Below, in pieces: positions 10,385-25,599 of a stretch of DNA of 33,174 bases. Every line of letters starts with the position of its first letter. Within the stretch, counting starts at the first letter, position 1. The translations under genes were made by a program, and so were the position numbers. The DNA comes from an uncultured Desulfobacterium sp. (GTDB taxonomy: Bacteria > Desulfobacterota > Desulfobacteria > Desulfobacterales > Desulfobacteraceae). Below the pieces are notes generated by a model that saw nothing but the letters and a program-made list of their open reading frames with translations, did no database searches and had not been told where the DNA came from. Location: assembly GCA_937124525.1 (NCBI GenBank), contig CAKZLA010000547.1:1-33174 (forward strand), read 5' to 3'.

Positions 10385-10516
10385 GCACTAAATCCCCCCG
10401 GGAAGTTTTTAATCTGTTTCTGAGTGTATTCAACCCAGGCGGTTAAGAAATTTCACCCTCTTTCCCATGAATCATTTGTAAAGGATTGATCATTAAGGTT
10501 CACACAATGATCAAGT

Positions 10517-10689
10517 GTAAATATTCGGATCGCTAATGTAAATGTTTGGCCAGTGCCCCATATTCGCGTATTTGGGACTGCGTAGCATACTAATGCTATG
10601 TGAGCAGGCCAAACCTAAGTGAATATGGAATGCTGGCCGAATATTTACCATCAAGTTTTGCAGGAACGAGAATCGGCAAACCACTTGAT
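10517..10689 (+). repeat. Nested imperfect inverted repeat, possible structured RNA or MITE-like element
   Basis: A 31-base left arm at 10538-10568 pairs with 10618-10648. It includes blocks GGCCAG and CCATATTC; most mismatches become G-U pairs when read as plus-strand RNA. The loop holds its own stem, TAGCAT-acta-ATGCTA (10583-10598). A partial extra copy of the arm end, GTAAATATTCGG, sits at 10517-10528 and exactly matches the complement of 10637-10648. An alternative pairing GTTTGGCC (10544-10551) with GGCCAAAC (10607-10614) exists. A further stem ATCAAGT/ACTTGAT (10650-10656, 10683-10689) lies on the right. No coding potential is seen. It falls between the mtnA stop and the siroheme decarboxylase gene. 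Confidence 0.6.
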
Positions 10690-10695
10690 AAAGAT

Positions 10696-11802
10696 TCAGC
10701 TTCGTTCGGGAAAAAGGGACAGAATGGAAGCTTCAGAAGCGCTGCACACCCCCCTTTCCGTGATGAATCCAGACACCAGCCGGGCCGGGGTCACATCAAA
10801 GGCATGGTTGGCCGCCGGGCTGTGGGCCGGGGGGACCATCACCGTGGCAAGCTCACCGTTTTTATCCAGCCCCTGTATGTGGGTGATTTCGTGGGGATCA
10901 CGGGTTTCAATGGGAATTTCTGCAATGCCGTCCCGCAGGGTCCAGTCAAAGGTGCTGGAGGGAAGGGCCACATAAAAGGGGACGTTGTTGTCCTTTGCTG
11001 CCAGGGCCTTGAGATAGGTGCCGATCTTGTTGGCCACGTCTCCGGTGCGGGTGGTTCTATCTGTGCCCACGATGACCAGGTCCACCATGCCGTGCTGCAT
11101 GAGGTGGCCCCCGGCGTTGTCGGTGATGACGGTGTGGGCAATGCCGTGTTTGCCAAGCTCCCAGGCTGTGAGTCGTGCTCCCTGGTTTAATGGCCTGGTT
11201 TCATCCACCCACACATGGATGTCAATACCGTTGTCAAAGGCCGTGTACATGGGGGCTGTGGCCGTGCCATATTCCACCGTGGCCAGCCATCCGGCATTGC
11301 AATGGGTTAAAATGTTTACAGGGCCGTCTTTTTTGGTACTGCTGATCTCTTCAATGAGGGAAAGACCGTGGAGGCCAATGAGCCTGCAATTTTCTGCCTC
11401 CTCTTCCACAATGGCCAGGGATTCTTTAAGGGCTGCGGTTAATCTTGAATCATGGGTGCCGTGGGGTAAAACCATCTGAAGTATTCGATCCACCCCCCAG
11501 GCCAGGTTCACCGCCGTGGGACGGGCATCTTTGATACGCTGGCATTCCTGGATAAGGTGCTCGTCATTCATCCCTTTGCCTTTGTTCTCAAAAAGGGCCA
11601 TGTAGACCCCAAAGGCCCCGGTGGCACCGATGAGGGGGGCTCCCCGGACAAACATTTCCTGTATGGCTTCAATGACGGCATCCACAGAGTTAAGATTGGT
11701 CTTGATGAGCTGGTGGGGCAGTTTTCTCTGATCAATGACCCAGGGGGTTTTTGATGCAGCATCAAACCAGATGGGTCGCATTTCTTTTCCATCCACATTC
11801 AT
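10696..11802 (-). CDS. mtnA: S-methyl-5-thioribose-1-phosphate isomerase
   Basis: MtnA converts 5-methylthioribose-1-phosphate to 5-methylthioribulose-1-phosphate in methionine salvage and belongs to the eIF-2B alpha-like fold family. The 368-residue product has the expected RGAPLIG motif (53-59), the catalytic cysteine in LTHCNAGWLAT (Cys168) and the catalytic aspartate in GTDRTTRTGDVANKIGT (Asp255). The C-terminal ERGV segment is also family-typical. I placed the start at 11802, where AAGGA lies about 10 bases upstream; the frame is open to 11910, but the extra residues do not look like MtnA. The deaminase encoded at 13840-15153 would supply the same route from deaminated methylthioadenosine. 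The enzyme could also act on 5-deoxyribose-1-phosphate. Confidence 0.93.
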   Translation of the reverse strand: MNVDGKEMRPIWFDAASKTPWVIDQRKLPHQLIKTNLNSVDAVIEAIQEMFVRGAPLIGATGAFGVYMALFENKGKGMNDEHLIQECQRIKDARPTAVNLAWGVDRILQMVLPHGTHDSRLTAALKESLAIVEEEAENCRLIGLHGLSLIEEISSTKKDGPVNILTHCNAGWLATVEYGTATAPMYTAFDNGIDIHVWVDETRPLNQGARLTAWELGKHGIAHTVITDNAGGHLMQHGMVDLVIVGTDRTTRTGDVANKIGTYLKALAAKDNNVPFYVALPSSTFDWTLRDGIAEIPIETRDPHEITHIQGLDKNGELATVMVPPAHSPAANHAFDVTPARLVSGFITERGVCSASEASILSLFPERS

Positions 11803-12503
11803 GTTATTTATGTCCTTAATTTGTTGTGTTCGTTTTATAAGAAGCTCCAGCAGCAACGTACCGACAGCAGAGCCCCCGACGGACGATGGGTCCGGCCCAT
11901 TGGGACCCAAAGGCGATAAGCCCTTTTGCCCTGCCGGGCGTTAAGAAGCACAGACTGTTTGAGGAGCTTGCCCGCAGTTTCTGTGTTTTAGATCGGCAGA
12001 GCAAAAGGGCCGCCATGATGTTGCCATTGATAAACAGGATATCTGCCATGTCTATGCCTGCGGCAGCCGCAATTATAGTTTCAATATCCATGATATGATC
12101 CATTCAACCCCTGTTGTTTTTTTGCTTAACTTTTTAGACAAAACCAAGCTGCTGTTTCTTATCACCGGGAGCTTATCAGATTTGGATGGAAACTTCAATT
12201 TAGGAGAATTGGGTCAAGCCTGGGTTGTTGGCGCTTTTGTTGAATGCTGCCTTTGTGCCCGGATTGTGCAAAAAGCGCAACATGCCCCCTCCCCATAATG
12301 TCGGCCCATAAGCAAAAAATATGCAACCTTGAAAATAAAATGTAATTCAGCTATTACGAATAGCATATTAATTTAGGTTAAGCTCTCCATGCTTGGTTCA
12401 ATACACCCCGTTTTTTTTAAACCCATCCAGGAATGAAAAGCATTTTATCAATGATTTTATAATAAGAAAGGAGTCTTTTATCCCCTGTCCAAAGGAGGTC
12501 CCC
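11803..12503. other. Divergent intergenic region between mtnA and the aminomutase gene
   Basis: About 700 bp separate the two divergent genes. Frames present here look non-coding. The region includes a GC-rich hairpin-like block: GGGTCC (11888-11893) and GGACCC (11903-11908) around a 9-base loop, part of a repeat also found at the right edge of the window. 12290-12500 is AT-rich and should hold the aminomutase promoter; I could not assign boxes with confidence. A strong Shine-Dalgarno (AAAGGAGGT) at 12491-12499 serves the gene at 12504. Confidence 0.5.
11873..11898 (-). repeat. GC-rich dispersed repeat, copy 1
   Basis: This 26-bp block matches the copy at 33148-33173 at 22 of 26 positions in the same orientation (CCCCCGA-x-GG-x-C-x-ATGGG-x-CCGGCCC on the plus strand). 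It lies in the mtnA upstream region next to a short palindrome. It may be part of a longer extragenic repeat, because the second copy is cut by the window edge. Confidence 0.5.
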
Positions 12504-13808
12504 ATGAATACAGGCTATAACAATGAGAAATATAAGGTCTATACCCAGAAAAATTTTCAGGCCATTCCCCAGATTGATGTCATTGACCGGGAATACCTTG
12601 ACAATATGTCCGCCGTTGCCGAGGTTTTCCCCTTCCGCGTTAACAATCATGTGATCAACGAACTTATTGATTGGGAAAAAGTCCCCCATGATCCCATATT
12701 TCAGCTCACCTTTCCCCATCCAGACATGCTTTTACCTGAAGATCTCACCCGCATAAAGCGCCTTCAATGTGCCACGGAACATTCCCTGGCCTTGAAACAG
12801 GAGGTGCGTCGTATCCAGAAGACCCTCAATCCCCATCCGGCAGCCCAGGTGGAAAAGAACGTTCCCGTTGAAGATGGGCTGGAGGTCAAGGGGATACAAC
12901 ATAAATATAATGAAACGGTGCTGTTCTTTCCCACCCAGGGCCAGACCTGTCATGCCTATTGTACCTATTGTTTCCGGTGGGTGCAGTTTGTGGGTATGGA
13001 AGATCTGAAGTTTGCCTCTTCCACACCCCGGCATCTCACCGATTATCTGTCCCGGCATCCAGAGGTGAATGATGTCCTTTTCACCGGGGGTGATCCCCTG
13101 TTCATGCGGACCCGAACCCTGGAGCGCTATGTGGAACCCCTTTTGACACGGGGTGATAACAATGTCTCCAGCATTCGTATGGGGACCAAATCCGTGGTCT
13201 ACTGGCCCCATCGTTTTCTGGGGGATAAGGACGCCGAAGACTTGTTAAGACTGTTTGAAAAGATTGTTCAATCCGGCATTCATCTCTCCATTATGGCTCA
13301 TATTACCCATCCCCGGGAGCTTGAAAATCCCCTTGTCAAGGCGGCTGTCAGACGAATTTTGGGAACGGGTGCCCAGATGCGATGCCAAGCCCCCCTGGTG
13401 CGTCACATCAATGATGATCCCCAGATATGGCAGGAACTATGGAAAAAAGAGGTGGAGCTGGGGATGATCCCTTACTATCTGTTCATTGCCCGCAACACCG
13501 GCCCCAGGGCTTATTTTGAGGTCTCCCTGGCCCGGGCCCATGAAATTTTCACCCAGGCCTATGCCAATGTGTCAGGTCTGTGCCGCACGGTGAGAGGGCC
13601 TTCCATGTCTGCGGCACCGGGCAAGGTGGTGATTGACGGCACCCCTGAAATAAACGGAGAAAAGGTGTTTGCCTTGAAATTCATCCAGGCCCGGGATTCC
13701 CGGTGGGTAAACCTGCCATTTTATGCCCGGTTTGATGACACGGCCGTGTGGCTGGACGACCTGAAACCTGCCTTTGGCCGAGAACGTTTTTTCTTTCAGG
13801 AGGGATAA
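12504..13808 (+). CDS. Radical SAM aminomutase of the lysine 2,3-aminomutase (KamA) family
   Basis: Enzymes of this family use S-adenosylmethionine, a 4Fe-4S cluster and PLP to migrate an amino group (lysine to beta-lysine; relatives act on glutamate or other amino acids). The 434-residue product has the CHAYCTYCF cluster motif (Cys at about 149, 153 and 156), the FTGGDPLF glycine-rich SAM-binding segment and, near the C-terminus, PGKVVIDG, where the family has its PLP lysine. The N-terminus is not of the standard KamA type and the PLP segment lacks the Gly-rich PGGGGK form, so the substrate is uncertain. The start is set by AAAGGAGGT five bases upstream; an in-frame extension back to 12393 lacks support. 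It is transcribed toward mtaD, the two genes converging with 31 bp between stops. beta-Lysine derivatives are osmolytes in some anaerobes, so osmoadaptation is one possible role. Confidence 0.78.
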   Translation: MNTGYNNEKYKVYTQKNFQAIPQIDVIDREYLDNMSAVAEVFPFRVNNHVINELIDWEKVPHDPIFQLTFPHPDMLLPEDLTRIKRLQCATEHSLALKQEVRRIQKTLNPHPAAQVEKNVPVEDGLEVKGIQHKYNETVLFFPTQGQTCHAYCTYCFRWVQFVGMEDLKFASSTPRHLTDYLSRHPEVNDVLFTGGDPLFMRTRTLERYVEPLLTRGDNNVSSIRMGTKSVVYWPHRFLGDKDAEDLLRLFEKIVQSGIHLSIMAHITHPRELENPLVKAAVRRILGTGAQMRCQAPLVRHINDDPQIWQELWKKEVELGMIPYYLFIARNTGPRAYFEVSLARAHEIFTQAYANVSGLCRTVRGPSMSAAPGKVVIDGTPEINGEKVFALKFIQARDSRWVNLPFYARFDDTAVWLDDLKPAFGRERFFFQEG

Positions 13809-13815
13809 CTCCCAA

Positions 13816-13858
13816 CGCCGGGGTAAAATCCACGGTAACTTAAGCCGAATCCCCGGCG
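13816..13858. terminator. Hairpin between the convergent aminomutase and deaminase genes
   Basis: A perfect 8-bp inverted repeat CGCCGGGG (13816-13823) and CCCCGGCG (13851-13858) joins the ends of the two convergent genes; the right arm lies within the last codons of the deaminase gene. There is no T-run, so termination from this structure alone is uncertain, but the position suits a shared bidirectional transcript end. Confidence 0.4.
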
Positions 13859-15153
13859 GCAATGTCCTTTGCAATGTCCAGGACATCATCCATCACCTGA
13901 TCCACATTAAGGGTGGTCAGGTTTCGGTTTTCCATTAATACCTTGCCGTCAACAATGGTGGTAATGACATCGCTTCCCCTGGCAGAATACACCAGCTGGG
14001 AGTATGGGTTGTACATGGGAACCATGTGGGGGCTGCGGGTGTCCACCACAATGATGTCACCCCTTTTCCCCGGCTCCAGTGAGCCAATAATCCCATCCAG
14101 TCCCAGGGCCTTTGCACCGTTGATGGTGGCCATTTGCACGGAGGTTGTGGCATTCACAGCCTCCGGGTTCATGGAAAACACCTTGTGCAGCTTTGCTGCG
14201 CTGTCCATCTCCAGGAACAGATCCAGATCATTATTGCTGGCACACCCGTCGGTGCCGAGGGCCACACATATCCCCTCTGCCAGAAATTCCGGCACCGGTG
14301 CCACCCCCGAGGCCAACTTCATGTTGCTTTCCGGGCAATGGACCACCTTGACATCAAATTGTCGATACAATGTCCGCTCCTCCGGGGTGAGGTGCACACA
14401 ATGGCAGGCCACCACATTGGGGCCAAGCACCCCCAGATCGGCAAGGAACTTCACAGGGGTTTTCCCATACTTCTCTTCAATAAGTTTTACCTCATTGCAG
14501 GTTTCAGCCACATGGATGACAAGGGGTACCTGTTGTGTGCGGGCCATATCCGCCGCTCTTTTGAGCAGCTCCGGGGCACAGGTATAGGTGGAGTGGGGCT
14601 CCACAGCCACGGTGATCAGGGGGTTGTTTTTCCATTTTTCCATCATGGTACTGACATACTCAAACCCCTTGTCCAGGAGGCCATAACAGGGGGATGGGAA
14701 ATCATAGAGAACCTCCCCCACCACGGCCCGCATGCCAACCTTTGCGGCGGCCTTTGCCACCTCTTCTTCAAAGAGATACATGTCGCAAAAGCAGGTGGTG
14801 CCGGAAAGCAGCATCTCGGCACAGGCAAGCAGGGTTCCCCGGTACACCATATCCGCTGTGATCCGGGATTCTGCCGGAAAGATATGATCATTGAGCCACT
14901 CCATCAGGGGCAGATCATCGGCCAGCCCCCGGAACAGGGTCATGGCCGCATGGGTATGGCTGTTGATAAGGCCGGGCATGATGATTCCCCCATGGGCATC
15001 AATTTCCCGGGTTTGGGCATCCTGCGAACAATCAGCCGCATCCTTGCCAACGGATACGATAACCCCGTCCCTTACCCGAACAGCCCCTTTTTTAATGATT
15101 TGCAACCCAGCGTTCATGGTCAATATCATGCCGTTTTTTATCAACAGATCCAT
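13840..15153 (-). CDS. mtaD: 5-methylthioadenosine/S-adenosylhomocysteine deaminase-type amidohydrolase
   Basis: A metal-dependent amidohydrolase of the MtaD/TrzN-like group, which deaminates S-adenosylhomocysteine and/or methylthioadenosine to the inosine forms. The 437-residue product opens MDLLIKNGMILTMN, the family start, with metal ligands NSHTH (His66 and His68), then HVAET, HCVHLTPEE and GTDGCASNNDLDLF (metal Asp), and a C-terminal DIIVVDTRSPHMVP return to the beta-sandwich. The start at 15153 has AAGGAAA about 9 bases upstream; the frame stays open to 15336 but those residues do not fit the family. It is near mtnA though not in its operon. Together they would support conversion of methylthioadenosine via methylthioinosine, if a phosphorylase is present elsewhere. 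Confidence 0.9.
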   Translation of the reverse strand: MDLLIKNGMILTMNAGLQIIKKGAVRVRDGVIVSVGKDAADCSQDAQTREIDAHGGIIMPGLINSHTHAAMTLFRGLADDLPLMEWLNDHIFPAESRITADMVYRGTLLACAEMLLSGTTCFCDMYLFEEEVAKAAAKVGMRAVVGEVLYDFPSPCYGLLDKGFEYVSTMMEKWKNNPLITVAVEPHSTYTCAPELLKRAADMARTQQVPLVIHVAETCNEVKLIEEKYGKTPVKFLADLGVLGPNVVACHCVHLTPEERTLYRQFDVKVVHCPESNMKLASGVAPVPEFLAEGICVALGTDGCASNNDLDLFLEMDSAAKLHKVFSMNPEAVNATTSVQMATINGAKALGLDGIIGSLEPGKRGDIIVVDTRSPHMVPMYNPYSQLVYSARGSDVITTIVDGKVLMENRNLTTLNVDQVMDDVLDIAKDIAAGDSA

Positions 15154-15519
15154 TGGGCGTTTCCTTTTTTTTGTTAGAAAATAAAGCATTCGAGTGCCCA
15201 CAGCAGTCCTCGGGGGCGGCATTATGCCATTTTCAATATTTGTTGTGCCGGTAAAACGACATGGCAGTTGAATGAAATAAAATTTTGTTTCCAAGGGCAA
15301 TATCAAGATATGGAGTGCTTGTAAAGGGTTGGGCAAGCCTGATTACAAGGGTTGAAAATTGTTTGCCATTCCGGTGGCCTATGAATTAATCTCCAACCAA
15401 ATTGACTTTTGGATAGTTTGTGGATAAAATAGATAATTTTATTTAAAGCCCTTGAACCGTGTCTTTCTCATTTGGATGGTGGTGGGCCACAGAGTTGATT
15501 TTACAGGAGAAAAATATAT
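15154..15519. other. Divergent intergenic region ahead of the Srf-like cassette
   Basis: About 366 bp with no convincing gene. It holds the leader of mtaD on minus and, on plus, the promoter at 15402-15430 and the Shine-Dalgarno ACAGGAGA at about 15503-15510 for the gene at 15520. Confidence 0.5.
15402..15430 (+). promoter_or_regulatory. sigma70-like promoter of the Srf-like cassette
   Basis: TTGACT (15402-15407) and TAAAAT (15425-15430) are separated by exactly 17 bases, each matching the consensus at five of six positions. A start around 15437 would give a leader of about 80 nt before the ATG at 15520. It is the best promoter match in the window and lies in a clear intergenic region. Confidence 0.6.
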
Positions 15520-17394
15520 ATGGGTCGTTTTGATGACTTTGAGCTGCCCGTTGAAAAAATTCAGGCCTATCCCCTGGTTTTTGAAGCGCTGGTGCCACCG
15601 GAATGCAGTATTTTTCAGGATGTGAGGCGGTATCAGAGTGTAACCTCCAGCCTGGATGTGAGAATCATTGATATCAACGGGAAAATTCCCCTGGAACAGG
15701 GAATGACACAAATCCCCATGGCCAGCTTGTCTGCCAATGCACGAAAGGAGTTCATTGAATACCTGAAAGTGCGGGTGACAAGGGGGGACAACATTGGCTC
15801 CCTATGGGTTTTTTTCCGTTCAGAAGATAAAAAAATCATCACAGCCTATGGTGCCAACGTGGTGCACAAGGACTCCCTCCAGGGGCAGTCCCGGGCCATT
15901 GCCCTTCTTAAAGAACTTCAAAAAGGGGGACCCAGAACCACCTTTTTGATTAAGCTTGCTGTGATTTTGGGAGTATTGGCCCTTGTGTCCGCAGGGGGAT
16001 ATGCCCTGTATGATAAATTTTTCACCGGTAAATCCTTTGAGCTCTCACTGGGAAGCAGCGATCCTGACTCCATGGAAATGGTGTTCTACAATGAACTTTT
16101 CCCAGAAGTGTATTCGTGGCTGGATTCAGATAAGCCTGATGAAAAAAAAATTGCAGAAACCCTTTTAAACCCCGACTATGTCAAAGACCTTCTCTCCTGC
16201 ATGAATCAGGAAGCCTACCAGGACACTTCGGATTCCGATGCCAATTTTAAAAGCACCCGATTGGCACTTTTTGTCTATTTTAATTACAACAAGGCCGTGA
16301 CCAAGGCCCTGCGAAAATATGAAATGCAGCTGTCTGGAACAGAGATGAAGCGTCTTGCCAGGATTTATTCCTGCGCTGAGTCGGGCTACACCAGCAATGT
16401 ATTTTATTTCAAGGTGGGGGATCTGAACATCAAACAGCCCCAGGTGAGCCAAATCCTCAATGAGAACATGGTCTCCTACACAGATTATAAACGGCTAAGG
16501 GACTCCCAGGAATTCTCCCAGATGCTCAAGGCTGATACCATTGACTTTAAAATGAAAAATTTTCTTGCCGATGTATATACTTTCTCGCCCCTGAAAATAG
16601 AGGCCCCCCTGGATGACATTGACTGGTATCTGCTGGCCGGAAGAGACACCACGGGCAAGCTGTCCTTTGCTGCCTTTTTCAAGAGAGACGAGTCCACCCT
16701 GGTGCCCCGGCGCATTGCCTCGGCCCTCATGGGTGCAGGTGGCACAGACCAGACCTACACCTGGTATGCCATTGATGATACCCAGCAGCGGGAATTGAAA
16801 ATTTCCAATACTTCAGCCGTTTATTTCACGGACAAAATCGGGCAATCCTTTAAACTGGCACTGATTGCTGAAAAGATTGAAAATATGCAATTGAGCCCCA
16901 TTGAGTCAAACTTTCCCGTGGCAGTACACCGGGAATTACTCATGGAAGATTCCAAGGGAAAATATGGTATCCAGTGTTATGATCCCTTGACATCCCTTGT
17001 CTTGTCAAACCTCATTAATAAATCCTCCTTTGAAAAGAGCAGCCATGTTACCTTGAAGCGGGACCCCATCCAGGTCAATACCTCCCTTGTGCAGCTATCC
17101 AAGGATGACAGCTCCTCCACCCAGGCGGTGAATATCAGTCCGGGACGATCGGGGATTGTCAGCCTGTTTAAAAATGCAGATCATTTCCGGGGAAAGCTTG
17201 CAAATGGCCGGGTGGTGAAATTTGAGCGGGCAGACGTTAATCTTTTTAATCCCTTTTCATTCATGGTGTACAGTGACAGTATCACCTTTAGCTACAAGCA
17301 TGAAATCAATGGAATGAAATTTGGAATTGATGAGAAAAAACTTGAAATCATCAAGTCCGTGGATGGCGGCTACCAGATCACCGAGCAGGATTGA
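15520..17394 (+). CDS. Single-pass membrane protein, first gene of the Srf-like cassette, unknown function
   Basis: I do not recognise this family. The 624-residue protein has a soluble N-terminal domain of about 140 residues (mixed alpha/beta, no signal peptide), one strongly hydrophobic helix at about 143-166 (FLIKLAVILGVLALVSAGGYALY) with basic residues before it, and a ~455-residue C-terminal region rich in Asp, Ser and aromatic residues. By the positive-inside rule the N-terminal domain should be cytoplasmic and the large C-terminal part periplasmic. It is followed after 55 bp by a dynamin-like NTPase and then an actin-like ATPase. The arrangement suggests an envelope-anchored partner for two cytosolic nucleotide-driven proteins, as the SrfA position is in srfABC loci. 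I see no sequence reason to call it SrfA itself. Confidence 0.7.
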   Translation: MGRFDDFELPVEKIQAYPLVFEALVPPECSIFQDVRRYQSVTSSLDVRIIDINGKIPLEQGMTQIPMASLSANARKEFIEYLKVRVTRGDNIGSLWVFFRSEDKKIITAYGANVVHKDSLQGQSRAIALLKELQKGGPRTTFLIKLAVILGVLALVSAGGYALYDKFFTGKSFELSLGSSDPDSMEMVFYNELFPEVYSWLDSDKPDEKKIAETLLNPDYVKDLLSCMNQEAYQDTSDSDANFKSTRLALFVYFNYNKAVTKALRKYEMQLSGTEMKRLARIYSCAESGYTSNVFYFKVGDLNIKQPQVSQILNENMVSYTDYKRLRDSQEFSQMLKADTIDFKMKNFLADVYTFSPLKIEAPLDDIDWYLLAGRDTTGKLSFAAFFKRDESTLVPRRIASALMGAGGTDQTYTWYAIDDTQQRELKISNTSAVYFTDKIGQSFKLALIAEKIENMQLSPIESNFPVAVHRELLMEDSKGKYGIQCYDPLTSLVLSNLINKSSFEKSSHVTLKRDPIQVNTSLVQLSKDDSSSTQAVNISPGRSGIVSLFKNADHFRGKLANGRVVKFERADVNLFNPFSFMVYSDSITFSYKHEINGMKFGIDEKKLEIIKSVDGGYQITEQD

Positions 17395-17449
17395 CCTTGG
17401 GTGATCGACCCTGTTGAATGAAATAATTGTCAGGAGAGAATAAATTCCC

Positions 17450-18940
17450 ATGCGTTTTAACGAAAGCCGCCTGGTGCGGCTAAAAGATAATATTCAAAGT
17501 ATCATTGAAAAATTAAAAATTGTCCCTTCCCGTCAAAAAGAAAGAGCGTCTTTAGTGGTTACAGCCTGCCGGGAGTGTCTGGAGCATGTACCAGCCACAG
17601 ATACCCCGGTGTACGTCCACATCATGGGCACAGACAAATCCTTTAAAACCAGTTATCTTCTGGACCTGTTTGGCCATGAAGCCCTGGGAACTCTTTTTTC
17701 AGTCAAGACCCATAACACCTCGGAAAACACAGCAGTCCCATGCCTGGTGGAGCCTTCTGATGCCGTGAACCGCATCCTCATAAGGCAACTTGCCATCAGT
17801 ACCGGGCAGATCATCCGGGATGATATCACCCCGGACCTTTTTGGCAAGCTGTACGACCTTTCCCAGGGGGCAGTGCCCGACGATTATCTGCTCCAGGTAT
17901 TGGTACCCTCCGCACAAACACCCATGACCCTGCCGGTGATTGAGTACCCCGGGATCAAAGAGGGGGCAGATGCCATGGAAACCCAAAGGGCACTGCACAA
18001 AACCTTTGAAAAAAATCTGGTGGATAATCTCATCCGGTTCCCCGGTATTTTGGTGGCCTGTTTTCAACATAAAATTGCCATCCCCCTGGGCCATCCCATG
18101 GATATTATTTTGAGAAAATACCGGGAGGTGCTGGACACCGGTCCCCTGGATCGCAAATTGCCCCTGGTGGTGTCCCTCCAGGGGGAGAGCGCCATTGCCG
18201 GATATTGTGGTAACACCCATGTGGAAAAGGATATTGCCACGGATTTCAAGAGCTACACCGCCTTTGATACCATTATCCAGCTGGTGAATCCCTGTAATGG
18301 GAGTTATCCGGTGACCTTTGGTGCTCCAGGTCCCTACGTGGAGGGCTGGATTTCCGGGTTAAGCCGGTACAAAAACCTTGAAGAAATCCAGGAGAATATC
18401 ACCCTGGATGGGGGCATTGCCTGGTCCCGGGCCCTTCTTGAATCCATCTGTGGGGGTGAGACCATAAGAGAAGCCCTGGATATTATTTTTTTGATGCCCT
18501 GGATAACCCAGGCGGAAAACTGCATCACCGATGCCATGGCCGCGCTCAATGAGATCGAAACCTACGATGAGGTGGCTGAGGTGAAAGAAAAAATGCGCCG
18601 GATCATTGTCCAGGGGCGGTATCACGCCATCAGAAGCTATTTTAATAATGAGATGGCCACCCAGGCAGATGGCATTGTGGACAACCACGATCGGTTCTGG
18701 AATTCTGTTTTTGCCCAGTATCTCATGCAGTTTTTTGATGACGACGGGATGTGCCAGCGGGTGTCAGAAGAGCTGTGGCAAAACATGAAACAACGCCTGG
18801 ACGGTGGAAACAAGGGCTTTCTGGGCACCCGGGAGGAAGATCTGCCCTATATTATAATGAACAGTGCTGAATTGTATGTGCCCAATGCCCTGATTCGGGG
18901 AGATATTGCGGTCATGGGAAGAGCACTGGAGGACGAATAA
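17450..18940 (+). CDS. Dynamin-like P-loop NTPase, SrfC-like, with degenerate motifs
   Basis: The 496-residue protein begins with a charged helical stretch, followed by a strand and a P-loop-like motif MGTDKSFKTS (residues about 59-68). The usual second glycine of GxxxxGK[ST] is replaced by Phe. A G3/Walker B-like VIEYPGIKEG lies near 163-172, where Glu takes the place of the Asp of DxxG. No clean NKxD (G4) is visible. The C-terminal half (about 300-496) is mostly alpha-helical, as in dynamin-like proteins. The general plan matches the SrfC/'virulence factor' group of P-loop proteins found beside SrfB. AGGAGAG precedes the ATG. The stop codon overlaps the next start (TAATG), indicating tight coupling with the actin-like protein. 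The altered motifs could mean weak or absent hydrolysis. Confidence 0.55.
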   Translation: MRFNESRLVRLKDNIQSIIEKLKIVPSRQKERASLVVTACRECLEHVPATDTPVYVHIMGTDKSFKTSYLLDLFGHEALGTLFSVKTHNTSENTAVPCLVEPSDAVNRILIRQLAISTGQIIRDDITPDLFGKLYDLSQGAVPDDYLLQVLVPSAQTPMTLPVIEYPGIKEGADAMETQRALHKTFEKNLVDNLIRFPGILVACFQHKIAIPLGHPMDIILRKYREVLDTGPLDRKLPLVVSLQGESAIAGYCGNTHVEKDIATDFKSYTAFDTIIQLVNPCNGSYPVTFGAPGPYVEGWISGLSRYKNLEEIQENITLDGGIAWSRALLESICGGETIREALDIIFLMPWITQAENCITDAMAALNEIETYDEVAEVKEKMRRIIVQGRYHAIRSYFNNEMATQADGIVDNHDRFWNSVFAQYLMQFFDDDGMCQRVSEELWQNMKQRLDGGNKGFLGTREEDLPYIIMNSAELYVPNALIRGDIAVMGRALEDE

Positions 18941-20700
18941 TGCTGTTTGATTTTTTTAAACGAAAGAAAAAAAAGGTGGATGATTTTCAGCTGGAGCTGG
19001 CAGATGACAACCGCCTTTACTACGAAACCATTGCCGGAAGAACGTCAAGGGATCCCAATAACCGTGAAGAGTATATCCTTTTTGTGGATTTTGGCTCCTA
19101 CCGCACCTCTGTGCTCTGCTGGCCCTGTAGCTTTGGCCGGGATAAAATCACCGACACCTGGAAGTATGTGGTGCACTACGAAAATGGCAAAGGCACCGAA
19201 GGGGGCTTTCCCTCTGCTTTTATCAATCCTCCCTCGGGTGATGAACGCGATTTTGCCTTTGTGGATAATTTTGATGAGATCAATATTTCCAACAGCCAGA
19301 TTGTCAAAAGTGCAAAATCGGTGTTTGCCAGTAAATTTGCCGCCTACAAGGGCAATGTCCCCCAGTTCAGAATTTATATTAAAAAGGTGCTGGAGGAGAG
19401 CTTTAAATATATCACTGCTCCCAAGGAAGGGCGGCCCTGGAACGGCCCTGCCGTACCCGTGATTACGGAAATTCGGGTCACAGTACCGGATCTTTTCATT
19501 GAAAATTTAAGAAATGGATACCGGGACAGCATCTATTCGGTGTGCATGGAATTTGCCGGCCACAATAAGTGGAAACCTTTGCTTCCCCCCAACCTGAGAA
19601 GTCTTAAAAAAACCTTTGTGAATATATCCGCCGATGAGAGCGGGTCCTGCGAACTATACTTTCTCAATCTTATCAAGCTCATGCCTTTTTGGGATCTGTC
19701 CAGTGAAAAGGATCGACTGCCGGATTTAAAGGAGGTTGAGTTCCTTTTTTCCCAGAAGAAAAACACCCTCCAGGAAAAAAAGAAAGGCCTGACCTTTGTG
19801 GTGTGTCATGTGGACATTGGCGGCTTGACCACCGATGCCAGTATCCTTCTTATGCGCTCCTTTGAAGACCAGGATCTGGGTATTACCACCACCCTGAAGC
19901 GAAAAGAGTCCTTTTCTGAAAAAAAGGCGGGGGAGTACTTTAACGAGGTCTTTAAGGAAACCCGAATGCCCGATGATGAGGAAAAATGGTGGGATTCTGA
20001 CATCTTTATTGAAAAGGAATTTTCCCGGTTTCTGGAGCTACTCTTTGGCAAACAGTACGCCCTGCTCCAAGAGTGGCGAAAGGATCAATGCCTGGATGGG
20101 ATATACTTTTTGATTTCCGGACGGCCCACCAAGGCCACCAAGGTACGGGAGATCATTTCCCGGTTTATATTGCGCGAATTTAATAAGGAAGAGCTGCTGC
20201 TTTTGCCAGAGCATTGTCTGTTCATGGCCGATTATTATCATGTGGGTAAAAATCAGGAGGGGGAGCGCTACGCAAAGAAGATTGATAACTTTGAAAAGCT
20301 CATCACCATTCTTGGCAATGTTTATACCCTTTATGACGGGTATGAAATTGACTTTGATGAGCACCGGTATTACATCGCCCTGGACGTGGACACCCGCTAC
20401 ACCAACCGTATGGAGATATTGCCGGGCAAACAATATAATATGGAAGATTTTGAGAATTATCAAAAGGCGGCCCAGCGTAACAATGTGCTACATCTGGCCT
20501 TTACCCGTATTTCCTCCGGGGAAAATGCCACCCGGTTTCTCACGGTGAAGAAAATTGCAAGACAGACAGCCTATCCCACCATCAAGATTGCCGATAAGCA
20601 TGAATTTGATGACCAGGCCTGGATTACCCCTTCTTTGATCATTACCAATCTGGATCAGAATGACCAGGCCTTTGATCTGGCCTGGGCTTCCCATGTGTAA
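18940..20700 (+). CDS. Actin/Hsp70-fold ATPase, SrfB-like
   Basis: The 586-residue product shows the three nucleotide-binding signatures of the actin/Hsp70/MreB superfamily. Phosphate-1 is FVDFGSYRTS (Asp50), phosphate-2 is VDIGGLTTDAS (Asp at about 292), and an adenosine-type motif LISGRPTKATKVREII lies near 391-406. The [ST]GRP form of the last motif is the pattern I associate with SrfB-family proteins. SrfB of Salmonella is about 990 residues, so this would be a compact member. A basic N-terminal tail (FKRKKKK) could contact membrane or nucleic acid. The ATG overlaps the stop codon of the dynamin-like gene. In known loci SrfB and SrfC are neighbours and their function is unresolved. The actin-like fold is well supported; the SrfB link is inference. 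Confidence 0.7.
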   Translation: MLFDFFKRKKKKVDDFQLELADDNRLYYETIAGRTSRDPNNREEYILFVDFGSYRTSVLCWPCSFGRDKITDTWKYVVHYENGKGTEGGFPSAFINPPSGDERDFAFVDNFDEINISNSQIVKSAKSVFASKFAAYKGNVPQFRIYIKKVLEESFKYITAPKEGRPWNGPAVPVITEIRVTVPDLFIENLRNGYRDSIYSVCMEFAGHNKWKPLLPPNLRSLKKTFVNISADESGSCELYFLNLIKLMPFWDLSSEKDRLPDLKEVEFLFSQKKNTLQEKKKGLTFVVCHVDIGGLTTDASILLMRSFEDQDLGITTTLKRKESFSEKKAGEYFNEVFKETRMPDDEEKWWDSDIFIEKEFSRFLELLFGKQYALLQEWRKDQCLDGIYFLISGRPTKATKVREIISRFILREFNKEELLLLPEHCLFMADYYHVGKNQEGERYAKKIDNFEKLITILGNVYTLYDGYEIDFDEHRYYIALDVDTRYTNRMEILPGKQYNMEDFENYQKAAQRNNVLHLAFTRISSGENATRFLTVKKIARQTAYPTIKIADKHEFDDQAWITPSLIITNLDQNDQAFDLAWASHV

Positions 20701-20730
20701 GCCTTGGGATTGCCGCATTTTTGTTCTGAA

Positions 20731-21993
20731 ATGAGAAAATATATCGGATGGATCATCTTTGGCACCCTTGTCTTGTATCTTGTGAGCATTCCTGTACCCG
20801 TTGTGCTGGCGGTGCCGATGCTGCTTTCCTGGCTTGTGCCGATTCTGATGTGGCCCACCCTCGGGAAGAGCGCTCGCAATCAGACCTTAGCGCTCATGGC
20901 AATGGGCTCCATGCTTTTGATTTTTTCTGCCCACAGGGGTATTTTTTTCGGGTGGCAACAAATTCTTGCCCCCAATCTGCCACTGCTTGTCATGTTTGTT
21001 GCCGTCTCTTTTCTTGGCCTGACAAACACAGGTATGGAAGACAACACCCTGCCCAAGGGGAAAAAAGCTGTCATCATAACGGCCTTTGGTACCCATCTGC
21101 TGGCAGCCGTCATTAATTTGTCTGTGCTGTTTGTTTTTGGAGATCGACTTCAGAAGAACGGTACCTTAACACGGCCCCAACTGATTATTCTGGCCCGCTC
21201 ATTTTGTGCTGCGGCATGGTGGTCTCCCTTTTTTGTGGCCACCGGTGTTGCGCTGACCTATGCTCCGGGAATGCTGTGGCAGAAAACGCTGATTCCCGGT
21301 CTCCTCATGAGTGTCATTGCCATTGGGTACTCAATTGTTGAAGTGTGCTTTTTCCGAAAAGAAGAATTCTCCGGTTATCCCATTAAGGTGGAAAGCCTGA
21401 CAGTCCCGGCGTTCTTTGCCGTGGCAGTGATTTGTGCCCATTCTTTCCGGCCGGACATCAGCATTATGAATCTCATCAGTCTGCTTTCCCCGTTGGGTGC
21501 ACTGATTTTTATGAAATCAAGACCACGGCTGACAACCCTGGGCAGTTTTATAAATACTCGGCTGACATCCGTGAGCAGTCAATTTGCCCTGTTTCTTGCT
21601 GCCGGGGTTTTTTCCACCGGTATAAAAGCCATTACCCATGTGTATCCAGCGGTGTTCACCCTGGAAGGGGCAACCTTTACCGCCACCATGTTTTCTGTGA
21701 TTCTGGGAGGGATGGTCCTCCTATGCATCATGGGGGTGCACCCCATTGTCAGCATATCCGTGGTGAGTCCCTTATTGATACCCCTTCATCCGGGCAATTC
21801 CCAGTTGGGTTTTTTATTTCTCAGTAGCTGGGCCATATCAACGGGCAGTAGTCCCTTGTCAGGGGTTGGATTGGCTTTATTAAGCCGATACCGGGCATCG
21901 GCCCGGGGAATCATACAGAACAACTGGCATTATGCCATTGTGATGTGGGCCATTACCTCCATGATGAACATTTTTTTCTTTGGTGCGCCATAA
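20731..21993 (+). CDS. Polytopic inner membrane protein, transporter-like, end of the Srf-like cassette
   Basis: About 420 residues with roughly eleven or twelve hydrophobic helices spread over the whole length and short charged loops, the look of an ion-transporter-superfamily secondary transporter. A repeated character is visible: both halves contain Gly/Pro/Ser-rich segments (WWSPFFVATG near the middle, WAISTGSSPLSGVG near the end), as in permeases with inverted repeats and re-entrant loops. I cannot name a substrate. I use the ATG at 20731; TTG at 20704 would extend it by nine residues, and neither has a strong Shine-Dalgarno. It begins 30 bp after the actin-like gene, so it is probably the last gene of the same transcript. 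Whether it belongs functionally or just follows is open. Confidence 0.65.
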   Translation: MRKYIGWIIFGTLVLYLVSIPVPVVLAVPMLLSWLVPILMWPTLGKSARNQTLALMAMGSMLLIFSAHRGIFFGWQQILAPNLPLLVMFVAVSFLGLTNTGMEDNTLPKGKKAVIITAFGTHLLAAVINLSVLFVFGDRLQKNGTLTRPQLIILARSFCAAAWWSPFFVATGVALTYAPGMLWQKTLIPGLLMSVIAIGYSIVEVCFFRKEEFSGYPIKVESLTVPAFFAVAVICAHSFRPDISIMNLISLLSPLGALIFMKSRPRLTTLGSFINTRLTSVSSQFALFLAAGVFSTGIKAITHVYPAVFTLEGATFTATMFSVILGGMVLLCIMGVHPIVSISVVSPLLIPLHPGNSQLGFLFLSSWAISTGSSPLSGVGLALLSRYRASARGIIQNNWHYAIVMWAITSMMNIFFFGAP

Positions 21994-22078
21994 TCTGGCT
22001 TTTTTGGCCTTGACATATACTGAAGCTGGTGCAAATGATAATTGGAATATCTTTATACCTTTAATCTTAGGAGGATCT

Positions 22079-22288
22079 ATGAAGTCTGACAAGATAATGA
22101 ATGGAATTTCAAAGGAGATAATGATATCTCTAAAACAGATGAAAAAAACAACCACAACAGACGAAAAATTAAAGCACAGCAAAATTATCAAGAATTTATG
22201 TGAGTCACTTGAGGTCTTCTTTGGTTTCATGGACGAAATATCAGAATATGATTATGATTATGACGATGATGGCGACATTCCCTTCTAA
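22079..22288 (+). CDS. Small acidic-tailed protein of unknown function
   Basis: A 69-residue protein with a strong Shine-Dalgarno (TTAGGAGG) five bases upstream of the ATG. The first two thirds are helical and basic (many Lys, a run of Thr), and the end is strikingly acidic with alternating Tyr and Asp (EYDYDYDDDGDIPF). No family was recognised. The stop codon lies within the left arm of a perfect 15-bp inverted repeat. The strong ribosome-binding site is the main argument that it is real. Confidence 0.55.
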   Translation: MKSDKIMNGISKEIMISLKQMKKTTTTDEKLKHSKIIKNLCESLEVFFGFMDEISEYDYDYDDDGDIPF

Positions 22289-22337
22289 CATTAAGGATTG
22301 TGTCGACCTGCAAGATTGATCTCAATCCTTAATGTTA
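22286..22337. repeat. Perfect 15-bp inverted repeat
   Basis: TAACATTAAGGATTG (22286-22300) and CAATCCTTAATGTTA (22323-22337) enclose a 22-base loop. The left arm contains the stop codon of the small protein. There is no T-run after the right arm. It may terminate transcription, protect the mRNA end, or be an element boundary, since the right arm runs into a 17-bp sequence repeated at 27291. Confidence 0.8.
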
Positions 22338-22348
22338 TGACCAACCCC
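22332..22348 (+). repeat. 17-bp direct repeat, copy 1
   Basis: ATGTTATGACCAACCCC occurs here and identically at 27291-27307, each followed by (C)ATTA. A shorter match, TGACCAACCCC, occurs at 30727-30737, just after the stop of the U32 peptidase-family gene. The two full copies flank about 5 kb of accessory sequence. Confidence 0.6.
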
Positions 22349-22453
22349 ATTATTTTCAAAAATGGCCCAGGTTATGATCAAGCCCGGCAACTCCATGATC
22401 AAACGCTAACATTGAATTCTGACAGCCAGCAATATGAGAAAGGAAATACGCAA

Positions 22454-23497
22454 ATGAAGCTTCAAAAGGTAAATCCATGGCAATTGTATATTCAAGTGAT
22501 AAAAAAACAGGTGATATTCTCCACATTGGCTGTTGTCGTGCTGATGTACTGGGGCTGTGGAATCACTGCCCGGGCTGCAACAACTTCCGGGGAGGCCCCC
22601 CTGAGCCCTGATTATAGCAAGATATCTTCTTGGGTATTCCAGGCACCAACGCCGGATAAACCTGTGGATGTCTTTTACATTTATCCCACAATTTATGGAG
22701 ACTCCTCTCCGGCGAACATGGACATAAACAATGCCTCCTTGCGAAAAACCGCAGAGCATCTCATGGATGCCCAGGCTGGTGCCTATTCAAAAACAGCCAA
22801 TTTGTTTGCACCCTACTATCGCCAGATGTCATTTGCCAAATTGGATCCCCAGACAGATATGTTCCAGAATAAATATTTCAAACTGGGCTATTCCGATGCT
22901 TCCCGGGCCTTTAACTATTATCTTGAACACTTCAACCAGGGCCGGCCTTTCATCCTTGCCGGTCACAGCCAGGGGGCCATGATGCTGATTACCCTGATGC
23001 GGGAGCAGTTCAATAATCCGGAACTTCAGAAAAAGCTGGTGGCTGCCTATTTACTCGGATACTCTGTGACCCAGAAGGATTTCACCACTTATCCCTGGAT
23101 GAAACCCGCCACCGGTGCCACAGATACCGGGGTCATTATTTCTTATAATACCCAGTCCCCTGATGCCACGGATTCTCCGGTATTATTGCCGGGGGCATAT
23201 TGCATTAATCCCTTAAGCTGGACAACAGATGGAACACCGGCGGACAAAAGCTTAAACCTTGGTGCCGTGTTCTTCAATGACACCACCAGCCACATTGACC
23301 GGGAAGTTGTCCATTACACCGGTGCCAGGGTGGATCCAAAAATCGGTGCCCTTATCGCCACCCCTCCGGATACCCTGGACGTTGGCGACTTCCCTCCAGG
23401 GATATACCACAGGTTTGATTATGCCTTGTGGTATCGTAACCTTCAGGCCAATGTGGCCCTTCGGTGCCAACGCTACCTTGACCAGAAGGGGCAATAA
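22454..23497 (+). CDS. DUF3089 family alpha/beta hydrolase, exported
   Basis: About 347 residues. After a basic N-terminus there is a hydrophobic stretch at about 16-35 and a possible signal peptidase site after TARA; a Cys near residue 36 is not in a good lipobox. The mature part matches the DUF3089 lipase-like family: DVFYIYPTIYGD at the start, LFAPYYRQM in the middle and the nucleophile elbow GHSQGA (Ser172). DUF3089 proteins are predicted serine hydrolases of unknown substrate, related to lipases and esterases. I chose ATG 22454 with GAAAGGA about 10 bases upstream; in-frame upstream residues do not form a signal peptide. It lies beyond the inverted repeat and has no obvious operon partner. 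Confidence 0.8.
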   Translation: MKLQKVNPWQLYIQVIKKQVIFSTLAVVVLMYWGCGITARAATTSGEAPLSPDYSKISSWVFQAPTPDKPVDVFYIYPTIYGDSSPANMDINNASLRKTAEHLMDAQAGAYSKTANLFAPYYRQMSFAKLDPQTDMFQNKYFKLGYSDASRAFNYYLEHFNQGRPFILAGHSQGAMMLITLMREQFNNPELQKKLVAAYLLGYSVTQKDFTTYPWMKPATGATDTGVIISYNTQSPDATDSPVLLPGAYCINPLSWTTDGTPADKSLNLGAVFFNDTTSHIDREVVHYTGARVDPKIGALIATPPDTLDVGDFPPGIYHRFDYALWYRNLQANVALRCQRYLDQKGQ

Positions 23498-23672
23498 ATC
23501 CCAGCGGTAAAAAATGGGAGTGGTTCCTTGGTGTTAGCTTTTTGTCACCGCAGAGTTTCATCAATCATGTGTGCACCGGGTATGGGTGGGTCCTGGGGGA
23601 TACCGGAAAATGCCTGGGCCAGAGAGAGCCATTTCCCGGCATGTTCGCCCTGCCATTTTAACCGGGTATCTG

Positions 23673-23828
23673 CCAGGTTTCCATTAAACGCGCCGTGGCA
23701 AAAGATCAGGCATTCATGTCCGGCCCATACCATGGCAATCTGTCCCCGGGCATCATGGTGCGAATGTGCTGAAGCAGGCGGGTACGCGTCCTGCGCCAAT
23801 ATAACAGCAGCTCATCCGTTTTTTTGAA
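23673..23828 (-). pseudogene. Remnant of a DinB-like (TIGR03084 type) metal-binding protein gene
   Basis: Reading leftward right after the GNAT stop codon, the frame gives TDELLLYWRRTRTRLLQ, then PGDRLPWYGPDMNA, a TGA stop at 23708..23706, and then in the same frame SFATARLMETW. From memory, intact TIGR03084/DinB-superfamily proteins have PWYGPxMSARSFATARLMETW at this place, so the TGA appears to replace a CGA arginine codon. The frame breaks again soon after. Both ends of the gene are missing, so it is a decayed fragment. A frame at 23545-23799 overlaps it but has no recognisable content. Confidence 0.6.
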
Positions 23829-23829
23829 T

Positions 23830-24237
23830 TTAATGATCCTCCCCCTGGTAGATCCACATGGGTATTGTTTTGCCCGCCCTTTCAAAACCGCACTTGTTGT
23901 AGAACTGCACTGCATTGCCGTCGGCTGTGAGCATCTGCTGGTGGAAGTCACCATATTTTTTCTGCATGACGTCCATCATTTTACGTCCGACCCCTTTCCC
24001 CTGATAATCTGGATGCACCAGCATGTGAGGGTAATAGACCACCAGACATCCATCGGAGATGGCATTGGTAATTCCAACCATCCGCTCCCCCACCCATGCC
24101 GAAACAAGGGAATGGGAGTTTCTCAGGGCTTTGTAAAGTAGGTCTGGTTTCTCTGCGGATGACCACTGATTACGTTTATACAGTTCCATGAGCTGCTTTT
24201 TTGGAATTTCGCGTACTTCCTTGATGACAACTTCCAT
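23830..24237 (-). CDS. GNAT family N-acetyltransferase
   Basis: A 135-residue acetyltransferase of the GNAT fold, which transfers acetyl from acetyl-CoA to an amine. The acetyl-CoA-binding motif A is clear: MLVHPDYQGKGVGRKMM, with QGKGVG at 79-84. It is followed by the C-terminal signature AVQFYNKCGFERAG, in which a Tyr commonly acts as general acid. AGGAG lies 6 bases before ATG 24237; the frame is open further upstream but those residues are not GNAT-like. The substrate is unknown. It is a single gene on the minus strand in an accessory region, next to a gene remnant. Confidence 0.88.
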   Translation of the reverse strand: MEVVIKEVREIPKKQLMELYKRNQWSSAEKPDLLYKALRNSHSLVSAWVGERMVGITNAISDGCLVVYYPHMLVHPDYQGKGVGRKMMDVMQKKYGDFHQQMLTADGNAVQFYNKCGFERAGKTIPMWIYQGEDH

Positions 24238-24656
24238 TTTTGCTCCTGTTAAGTTTTGTTTTCCTTTCACAAGTTTTTGATGATTTTTCCACAATGCATA
24301 TATTTTTTTTGTTTTACAATAAAAATATGCCATTCTGCAAAGAATCTCCTATGGTGCACAAGGCACTGAAAAAAAGGAAACTGAACTTTCATCATTATCT
24401 TCTTAATTACTTTTTGGGGGAATCATAATGATTTTCAGGTGTGATTAAAAATTTGATTATTCTATGAAAATGGTTGGTATCCTTCATATGACCCTAAAAG
24501 TACTTTACAGTCTTTTGAGAAAAAGCCCCTGTAATTGGGAAATGCTTTAAAAAAGTGTAAAGTACTTTTGAAGGATGCCAAATTGTTCATGAAGATTGCC
24601 CTTAAGTTATATGCATTATGGTCCGATGTAATATGTAATTTAAACGGAGGTGAAAT
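24238..24656. other. Intergenic region with a repeat-bearing hairpin
   Basis: About 420 bp of AT-rich sequence without a convincing gene. The main content is the inverted repeat at 24476-24579. It also holds the leader of the small gene at 24657, whose strong Shine-Dalgarno CGGAGGTGA lies at about 24644-24652. Confidence 0.5.
24476..24579. repeat. Inverted pair of a 34-bp dispersed repeat
   Basis: AAAAGTACTTTACA (24496-24509) and TGTAAAGTACTTTT (24556-24569) are a perfect 14-bp inverted repeat around 46 bases. Outside it ATCCTTC (24479-24485) pairs with GAAGGAT (24570-24576); the left arm has ten extra bases between the two blocks. The full 34-bp left arm (24476-24509, read on minus) matches 27201-27234 on plus at 28 of 34 positions. 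Small size, symmetry and repetition suggest a MITE-like or REP-like element, or paired regulator sites built on AAAGTACTTT. Confidence 0.65.
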
Positions 24657-24944
24657 ATGCATTTTGTTATCGGGGCTCCCCAACGTATCGGCCCGTCCGC
24701 ACAAAAAATGGAAACCAGACATGGACAATTGGAAGCACGTGTTTTAAATATTCGGTCTCCCCGAAAACATCCAAGACGCAAATCCGCCCGGCCCCAGGAC
24801 AGGAGGTCCAGAACCCCGGAGCAGGATACTGCATCAGGTCGTGTCATGGTACTGCTGGTACCTGATGGGTATCAAATTCCAAGAGATATTAATTCCGGCG
24901 ACTACCGGGTTTTTGTAAGGTTTGCACGGCGTCATCGGCGATAA
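24657..24944 (+). CDS. Small Arg-rich protein, unknown function
   Basis: A 95-residue very basic protein (Arg-rich in residues 35-55 and at the C-terminal RFARRHRR) with a central hydrophobic strand VMVLLVPDGY. The family is not recognised. The ribosome-binding site is nearly ideal (CGGAGGTGA four to five bases before the ATG), which is why I accept it. It ends 49 bp before the poly-gamma-glutamate-hydrolase-like gene on the same strand, so the two may be cotranscribed. The basic character would suit nucleic-acid binding, but nothing shows that directly. Confidence 0.5.
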   Translation: MHFVIGAPQRIGPSAQKMETRHGQLEARVLNIRSPRKHPRRKSARPQDRRSRTPEQDTASGRVMVLLVPDGYQIPRDINSGDYRVFVRFARRHRR

Positions 24945-24993
24945 TCTATGGTTGCGAACAAACTTTAATAATCTTCTGATTTAATTTGAAATT

Positions 24994-25599
24994 ATGCCAG
25001 ATAAATATACGAATTATGATGAGTTAAGCCAGAAGGAAAGGCTAAATGTTGATTATACGATTTTCCATCGTGGGGTTGATTCTAACATTGCTGTAATATC
25101 TCCCCACGGAGGAGGCATAGAGCCGGGCACCATAGATATAGCAGATGCCATGGCCGGATGTGAGCATACCTTTTATGCATTCAAAGCTTTAAAAAAATCA
25201 GGGAACAGAATATTGCACATAACCAGCAATAGATTTGATGAACCCCTGGGAATACAGGTTGCACAAAATGCCCTTACTGTTATTTCAGTTCATGGCTCCA
25301 GATTCAGAACGGAAACAGTTCACATCGGCGGAAGAAATCAACACTTGAAACAAAAAATAATGCATGCATTGACAGTCGCTGGATTTAATGCCGAAATAAG
25401 TGAAGTATCTGGGCTTAAAGGGATCAGCCCTGAAAATATCTGCAACAGATGCAAAAGCGGGGAAGGGGTTCAACTGGAAATATCAAGGGGATTAAGGGAA
25501 AAAATGTTTGATAATCTTGATCACCGTAGTTTAAGAAAAAGGACGATTTGTTTTTACAAATTTGTTAACACCCTGAAAGAAGTTCTCTCAACCAATTAA
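24994..25599 (+). CDS. Poly-gamma-glutamate hydrolase family protein (DUF867/PghP-like)
   Basis: A 201-residue protein of the family that includes phage PghP, zinc enzymes that cut poly-gamma-glutamate. The signature VISPHGGGIEPGT (His38 in HGGG, Glu43) is clear. Later expected elements are the ITSNRFDEP block, SVHGSR (second His) and, near the end, GVQLEISRGLRE, the conserved E-(I/L)-(S/P)-xGLR segment. Length is normal for the family. Members occur in phages, where they strip capsules, and in bacterial chromosomes. It has no signal peptide. The start has no clear Shine-Dalgarno, suggesting coupling to the small gene upstream. Its end overlaps the LysR remnant tail to tail by 12 bp. Confidence 0.85.
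   Translation: MPDKYTNYDELSQKERLNVDYTIFHRGVDSNIAVISPHGGGIEPGTIDIADAMAGCEHTFYAFKALKKSGNRILHITSNRFDEPLGIQVAQNALTVISVHGSRFRTETVHIGGRNQHLKQKIMHALTVAGFNAEISEVSGLKGISPENICNRCKSGEGVQLEISRGLREKMFDNLDHRSLRKRTICFYKFVNTLKEVLSTN

Follow-up and report, generated by a model that had tools for sequence, protein, structure and literature searches.

The closest described systems are the Srf operons, which encode SrfB (PF07520/COG4457; curated cut-off 27.1 bits) and SrfC (PF10139/COG4458). One report (PMC3608642) places srfB and srfC near tagQ and ppkA in host-associated Deltaproteobacteria and calls their function unclear, and a second (PMC6950479) describes the Srf operon as widespread, with cytotoxicity in Xenorhabdus. 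In the 12 Srf loci compared here, an SrfA-like membrane protein is encoded upstream in 11, followed by SrfB and SrfC, and downstream lie a cluster-C4 gene in nine and a gene with weak VWA matches in all 12. We analysed a 33,174-nucleotide stretch of DNA from an uncultured Desulfobacterium sp. (contig CAKZLA010000547.1; hereafter the window), in which three adjoining genes, g1, g2 and g3, encode a membrane protein, a protein with a predicted dynamin-superfamily fold and a protein with a predicted actin/Hsp70 fold. The three genes are a real, conserved and unnamed unit, and it is very likely both that they belong together and that the products fold as predicted. By a narrower balance, we favour the reading that the three function as a unit and make up a divergent Srf-like module of compact size. 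No actin-fold/dynamin-fold pair of such kind appears among the titles and abstract openings listed in searches of open-licence PMC text, a scope outside which the subscription literature lies.

Layout, conservation and distribution of the locus

An initial annotation had placed four plus-strand open reading frames (ORFs) with short gaps behind a promoter, and their positions and spacing were confirmed from the sequence. The first, g1 (15520–17394, + strand), encodes a 624-residue bitopic membrane protein of no known family. After 55 bases it is followed by g2 (17450–18940, +), which encodes the 496-residue protein with the predicted dynamin-superfamily fold and overlaps g3 by one base (TAATG). 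The product of g3 (18940–20700, +) is the 586-residue protein with the predicted actin/Hsp70 fold, a probable compact relative of SrfB. The fourth gene, g4 (20731–21993, +), begins 30 bases after g3 if the ATG at 20731 is its start, and its product is polytopic, as had been proposed.

The inclusion of g4 in the cassette was not borne out. Looked for beside the cassette in 38 sequences, g4 was found there in two, the window and the D. vacuolatum locus (L001 among the compared sequences), and it was rejected as a member of the module and is treated as a neighbour only. In L001 it lies ~200 bases after g3, behind a hairpin of 14 pairs that leads into a T run (minimum free energy −21.1 kcal/mol, z −5.47); an automatic terminator scan missed this hairpin and listed a weaker terminator-like site nearby instead. 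The 30-base g3–g4 gap of the window has no such structure (z −0.67). The only family hint for g4 was Holin_9, below the curated cut-off.

A candidate sigma-70-type promoter, TTGACT-17-TAAAAT (15402–15430, +), precedes g1. It had been called well formed, and it does match the consensus at 10 of 12 positions, the top value in a scan of 13000–25000 but one attained by six sites. Promoter-like sites are more than twice as common in this region as in shuffles (38 found against 16.1 expected), so the consensus match alone says little. What stands is its conservation: the 15382–15519 segment upstream of g1 aligns with D. vacuolatum at 84%, with three differences in the first 68 columns, an identical −35 element and a −10 element (TAATAT) changed by one base, whereas synonymous sites of g1–g3 differ by 40–48% between the two. 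All three genes are under purifying selection, with ratios of nonsynonymous to synonymous change (dN/dS) against D. vacuolatum of 0.086 for g1, 0.070 for g2 and 0.014 for g3. So nearly frozen a g3 sequence would fit a protein that has to bind several partners.

None of the three proteins belongs to a family that we could name. Searches of Pfam, NCBIfam, PHROGs and PADLOC returned nothing usable for g1–g3, with no Pfam match at E ≤ 5 and only non-significant NCBIfam rows, and the description of gene 1 as unrecognised holds for both Pfam and PADLOC. Sequence searches of the PDB gave nothing for g3 and non-significant rows only for g1 and g2. Among 5.8 billion proteins, g3 has 41 relatives at 31–98% identity, and the profiles of g1 and g2, with scoring confined to the ~8,000 candidates that had the most words in common, have 95 and 70. 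Relatives whose rows name an organism belong to Desulfobacteraceae genera, Desulfobacterales or Thermodesulfobacteriota. Two g3 peptide patterns searched against genome contigs of 84,980 species found 20 loci, all from Desulfobacteraceae or Desulfobacterales by title. The g3 family is narrow, since a search of 395 genomes drawn evenly from the phylum found it in D. vacuolatum alone.

Co-occurrence was counted in 86 genomes of the family to which D. vacuolatum belongs. Both g3 and g2 are present in the same 32 genomes, a 33rd g2 match (in G477) being a 27-residue stray, and g1 is present in 30. All three occur together in 29 genomes, and one (G405) has g1 alone; the co-occurrence expected of four genes holds for g1, g2 and g3. 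No g1 was found in G005, G008 and G009, and its linkage cannot be judged in the latter two because g2 runs off the contig there. By their coordinates, g2 and g3 adjoin in all 32 genomes, and their frames overlap in 27 of the 32 sequences, mostly by 11 bases when g3 starts are placed by a conserved N-terminal tail. The three genes are contiguous in 25 genomes. In another four (G002, G003, G004 and G407) g1 lies on a separate contig; that it is kept there although unlinked points to a common function, but these genomes are close relatives and not independent events.

Further features of these loci were seen in passing. The divergent g3/g2 pairs P0029/P0103 and P0032/P0106 agree in the length of their longest contig (51078 and 11425), as do the g2/g1 pairs P0101/P0201 and P0102/P0202 (33577 and 10460), which suggests that the genes are kept together there. 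A family of ~250-residue proteins (C10) is encoded near g1 in all five loci in which g1 is split off or alone (L173–L177). In three Desulfamplus loci without an adjacent g1 (L004, L005 and L008), a large ORF ends 4 bases inside g2; it clusters with response-regulator-like proteins, its nature being judged by eye.

Some defence systems make use of dynamin-like proteins, which is a point in favour of reading the locus as an anti-phage or stress-defence system with such a protein. However, PADLOC returned no family at E ≤ 5 for any of the four proteins, leaving known defence systems unmatched, and neither the 72,556 plasmid records nor the 50,697 phage records searched contained a match to g3. 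Genomes carry one full-length g3 each (one has an extra 50-residue piece), and the protein distances of g1, g2 and g3 correlate at r 0.977–0.982 over 30 taxa, as joint vertical inheritance would lead one to expect. Inheritance looks vertical on both counts, which argues against defence, and we consider such a role very improbable.

The flanks of the cassette vary, the commonest neighbour (C3, ~160 residues) occurring in 12 of 38 sequences and the next in seven. These flanks bear on the idea of an assembly-platform adapter resembling PilM–PilN, in which g3 would bind the cytoplasmic end of g1 and g2 would be an accessory protein of GTPase fold, the product being an envelope or secretion structure and not membrane remodelling. 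The lack of any neighbour shared by more than 12 of the 38 sequences speaks against it, although most neighbours were compared by clustering and may include pilus or secretion genes. So does the fact that FtsA, MreB and Hsp70 match g3 equally well, and we rate it unlikely.

The predicted actin-fold protein g3 and SrfB

The predicted model of g3 (predicted local distance difference test score, pLDDT, 83.2) matches Hsp70, MreB and FtsA, its identity to Hsp70/DnaK, MreB, FtsA and PilM being 8–16%, and structure prediction hence agrees with the actin/Hsp70 fold that had been proposed for gene 3. The three motifs assigned to it were also confirmed. They comprise a phosphate-1 motif, DFGSYRT, at residues 50–56 (19087–19107, +; DxGxxRT in 37/37 homologues), a phosphate-2 motif, DIGGLTTD, at residues 292–299 (19813–19836, +; D[IV]GGxTTD in 37/37) and an adenosine-type motif, SGRPT, at residues 393–397 (20116–20130, +; [ST]GRP[ST] in 34/37 and AGRPT in the other three). 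Together with the fold of the predicted model, they place g3 in the actin/Hsp70 ATPase superfamily as a putative member. The distant homologues P0036–P0041, at 31–36% identity, keep all three motifs, with AGRPT for SGRPT in P0036–P0038.

The protein begins with a hydrophobic and then polybasic stretch, MLFDFFKRKKKK (18940–18975, +), which is a candidate membrane-binding tail. A similar tail is present in all 32 sequences carrying g2 and g3, the same pattern having been used to place the start of g3, and was not seen in eight divergent homologues (P0034–P0041). MreB has a membrane-binding N-terminus, which the tail of g3 recalls.

The top Foldseek rows for g3 are full-length Hsp70s (E 6.6e-11), which would favour an Hsp70-like chaperone module with g3 as the chaperone ATPase for envelope proteins. 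The template-modelling scores of these matches are ~0.39, however, and HSP70 (PF00012) is not among the 12 families listed for the 37 g3 members at E ≤ 10. A chaperone module is in our view improbable.

Profile comparison favoured SrfB. The hhalign match between g3 and SrfB has a probability of 55.6 (P 1.2e-4), and at a plainer setting it scores 45.0 (P 2.3e-4), against 28.8–31.7 for MreB, DnaK, a second Hsp70 set and FtsA (11, 14, 5 and 12 proteins, respectively, with L100–L102 and L117 left out). Column-shuffled SrfB profiles reach a mean of 19.0 and, at most, 27.5 in 30 shuffles, and when the three window families are paired off the diagonal with SrfA, SrfB and SrfC, the scores are 15.8–23.8. 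Among the five actin-fold sets compared, g3 is closest to SrfB.

The motifs point the same way. DxGxxRT is found in 37/37 g3, 9/12 SrfB and 0/42 control proteins of the MreB, DnaK, Hsp70 and FtsA sets, and [ST]GRP[ST] in 34/37, 12/12 and 0/42. The phosphate-2 pattern DIGGxTTD, present in 36/37 g3 and 10/12 SrfB sequences, is not diagnostic, as 6/12 FtsA proteins carry it as well. All three motifs, in the shared form DxGxxR, D[IV]GGxT and [ST]GRP, occur in the same order along both proteins, and the srfB gene likewise lies beside a gene for a dynamin-like protein. The two differ in size: the 12 SrfB sequences have 1021–1184 residues with phosphate-1 at residue 252–365, whereas g3 has 586 with phosphate-1 at residue 50 and lacks the long N-terminal region of the ~1000-residue SrfB. 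Specific kinship of g3 to SrfB is, on this evidence, probable. SrfB itself exceeds its cut-off in 17 of the 395 phylum genomes and, in the class to which D. vacuolatum belongs, was found in none of 147 genomes, a search in which no control match registered.

The putative partners g2 and g1 and their possible Srf counterparts

The predicted model of g2 (pLDDT 84.9) consists of a dynamin-type G domain and a helical bundle and matches mitofusin, Fzo1, BDLP and dynamin, in agreement with the dynamin-superfamily fold expected for gene 2. EHD proteins, ATPases by their entry title, are also among the matches; the absence of a family from such fold-match lists carries no information. Of the dynamin-like motifs ascribed to gene 2, the G3-like EYPG at residues 165–168 (17942–17953, +) stands and is present in 59/59 homologues. 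The P-loop, GTDKSFKTS at residues 60–68 (17627–17653, +), is not canonical, with F replacing the second G. The altered form G....FKT is kept in 58/59 homologues, and the canonical G....GK[ST] occurs in none of the 59 against 16/16 proteins of three other dynamin-like sets. The [NT]KxD pattern is found in 1/59, and the dynamin-like set DLPb likewise has it in 0/9. Because the P-loop is altered, the nucleotide used by g2 is doubtful. From mitofusin/Fzo1, BDLP, IniA and dynamin, g2 differs in its ~10% identity, its altered P-loop and the lack of a detectable transmembrane segment.

Like the predicted fold of g2, SrfC is similar to dynamin-like proteins of bacteria (hhalign probability 90.9 to DLPb), and the two share a motif after the G domain. 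This motif, DGGIAWSR at residues 320–327 of g2 (18407–18430, +), belongs to a pattern DGG[IV]xxxRxxL found in 56/59 g2, 7/10 SrfC and 0/16 other bacterial dynamin-like proteins. The g2–SrfC profile score of 29.4 was the best of five sets, the other four (three of dynamin-like proteins and one of GTPases) scoring 18.8–25.7, and was reached by none of 30 shuffles; the dynamin-like controls come from the 16 of 19 chosen loci that gave an ORF, and one set is a single protein. G....GK[ST], DFPG and [NT]KxD occur in 0/59, 0/59 and 1/59 g2 proteins but in 10/10 SrfC proteins each. SrfC has 876–970 residues and a P-loop of the form GPSQxGKS, whereas g2 has 496, and the remark that both nucleoside triphosphatases (NTPases) are short is correct for this protein as for g3. 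PF10139 is not among the matches listed (25 of 30 families) for the 59 homologues, and neither g2 nor g3 of the window matched any family, PF10139 and PF07520 included, at E ≤ 5. A specific kinship of g2 to SrfC falls slightly short of an even chance in our estimate.

As had been proposed, g1 is a single-pass membrane protein. Its one predicted transmembrane segment (Kyte–Doolittle) spans residues 137–165 (15928–16014, +), with about 136 residues before it and 459 after, and 14/14 g1 proteins in the alignment have one hydrophobic region at the same place, which some rows show as windows that overlap. According to the positive-inside rule, the positively charged flank of a transmembrane segment faces the cytoplasm. 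Four K/R residues lie in residues 126–146 and one in residues 167–187, which places the N-terminus of g1 in the cytoplasm.

In the Srf loci of Desulfobacterota, the SrfA-like proteins (alignment A6) resemble g1 in being encoded upstream and in having an N-terminal domain followed by a transmembrane-like segment. They differ in that the part beyond this segment is shorter and has conserved cysteines, and there is no significant profile similarity. Whole profiles gave P 0.14–0.32. The N-terminal domains alone gave P 0.028 and a score of 20.5 against 18.2 for the largest of 60 shuffles, over 18 columns only. A larger alignment of 89 g1 sequences, those of at least 590 residues among 95 matches (P0112–P0205), gave no better match. 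At the sequence level, a correspondence of g1 to SrfA is unproven.

Several observations weigh against a Srf-like module. No g3 member reaches the SrfB cut-off; 5 of the 37 homologues match at E ≤ 10, the best at E 0.004 and 15.7 bits in a 37-residue stretch around phosphate-2. Against DnaK, the second Hsp70 set and FtsA, SrfB itself scores 50.2, 46.6 and 44.0, respectively, and since it matches these about as well as or better than g3, its profile may simply be the best-conserved actin-fold profile. The motif patterns were chosen after the sequences had been viewed. The g2–SrfC match (P 0.017) rests on 18 aligned columns, and with the 89 g1 sequences SrfA scores 17.8, below SrfB (18.8) and g2 (18.1). 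Gene order is reversed, with anchor, dynamin-fold and actin-fold here against SrfA–SrfB–SrfC, and the recurring neighbours of the cassette do not include the genes that lie downstream in Srf loci, the VWA gene not having been searched for genome-wide. The genomes in which the genes co-occur are related, and the counts are not independent events. Membership of SrfABC proper was not supported by Pfam cut-offs, SrfC motifs or gene order. Of the SrfB/SrfC arrangement seen by the initial annotation, what survives is the comparison with SrfB, in a controlled profile test, and not an identity with SrfB and SrfC themselves.

These points also bear on whether a dynamin-fold and an actin-fold protein were joined here independently of SrfB/SrfC, the common motifs being superfamily features or convergence. 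Such a convergent pairing would account for the lack of a curated-family match, a g2 without the canonical P-loop, a g1 unrelated to SrfA by profile, a gene order that differs from Srf and an SrfB whose match to DnaK is as good as its match to g3. Yet g3 scores higher with SrfB than with four other actin-fold sets, two unusual motifs common to g3 and SrfB are absent from 42 controls, and in both systems a membrane protein accompanies proteins of the same two kinds. We regard independent pairing as fairly unlikely and retain the compact, divergent Srf-like module as the preferred reading.

Surroundings, proposed mechanism and meaning

Elsewhere in the window, an Omp85/POTRA protein gene adjoins a TamB protein gene at 1078–7058 (− strand), a TAM-like envelope pair. 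The 8534–15336 region encodes a radical SAM/B12-binding protein and an IF-2B family protein, contains a second ORF whose radical SAM match is weak and falls below the cut-off, and includes an amidohydrolase gene divergent from g1. Beyond g4, a DUF3089 protein and a poly-gamma-glutamate hydrolase family protein are encoded at 22448–23497 and 24994–25599.

For the Srf-like module, we propose a machine sited on the cytoplasmic side of the inner membrane. In this scheme g1 would anchor the system in the inner membrane, its N-terminus cytoplasmic and its large C-terminal part periplasmic, and g3 would be recruited to the membrane through its N-terminal tail and the cytoplasmic domain of g1. An ATP cycle could take g3 from one conformation to another, or make it assemble and disassemble. 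The dynamin-fold protein g2 would associate with g3 and act on the membrane or on an envelope complex in a nucleotide-dependent manner. The mechanism is inferred throughout, and we offer it tentatively, with the chances somewhat against its being right as told.

A broader and rather doubtful idea is that SrfB/SrfC and the cassette are two branches of one ancient envelope machine made up of an actin-fold ATPase, a dynamin-fold NTPase and a bitopic coupler, of which the Desulfobacteraceae would have a minimal form, about half the size, whose dynamin-fold member gave up the canonical P-loop. A half-sized relative in free-living sulfate reducers would offer small proteins for biochemistry, with which it could be asked whether the actin-fold member is a filament, a switch or a chaperone, and whether or not the system remodels membranes.

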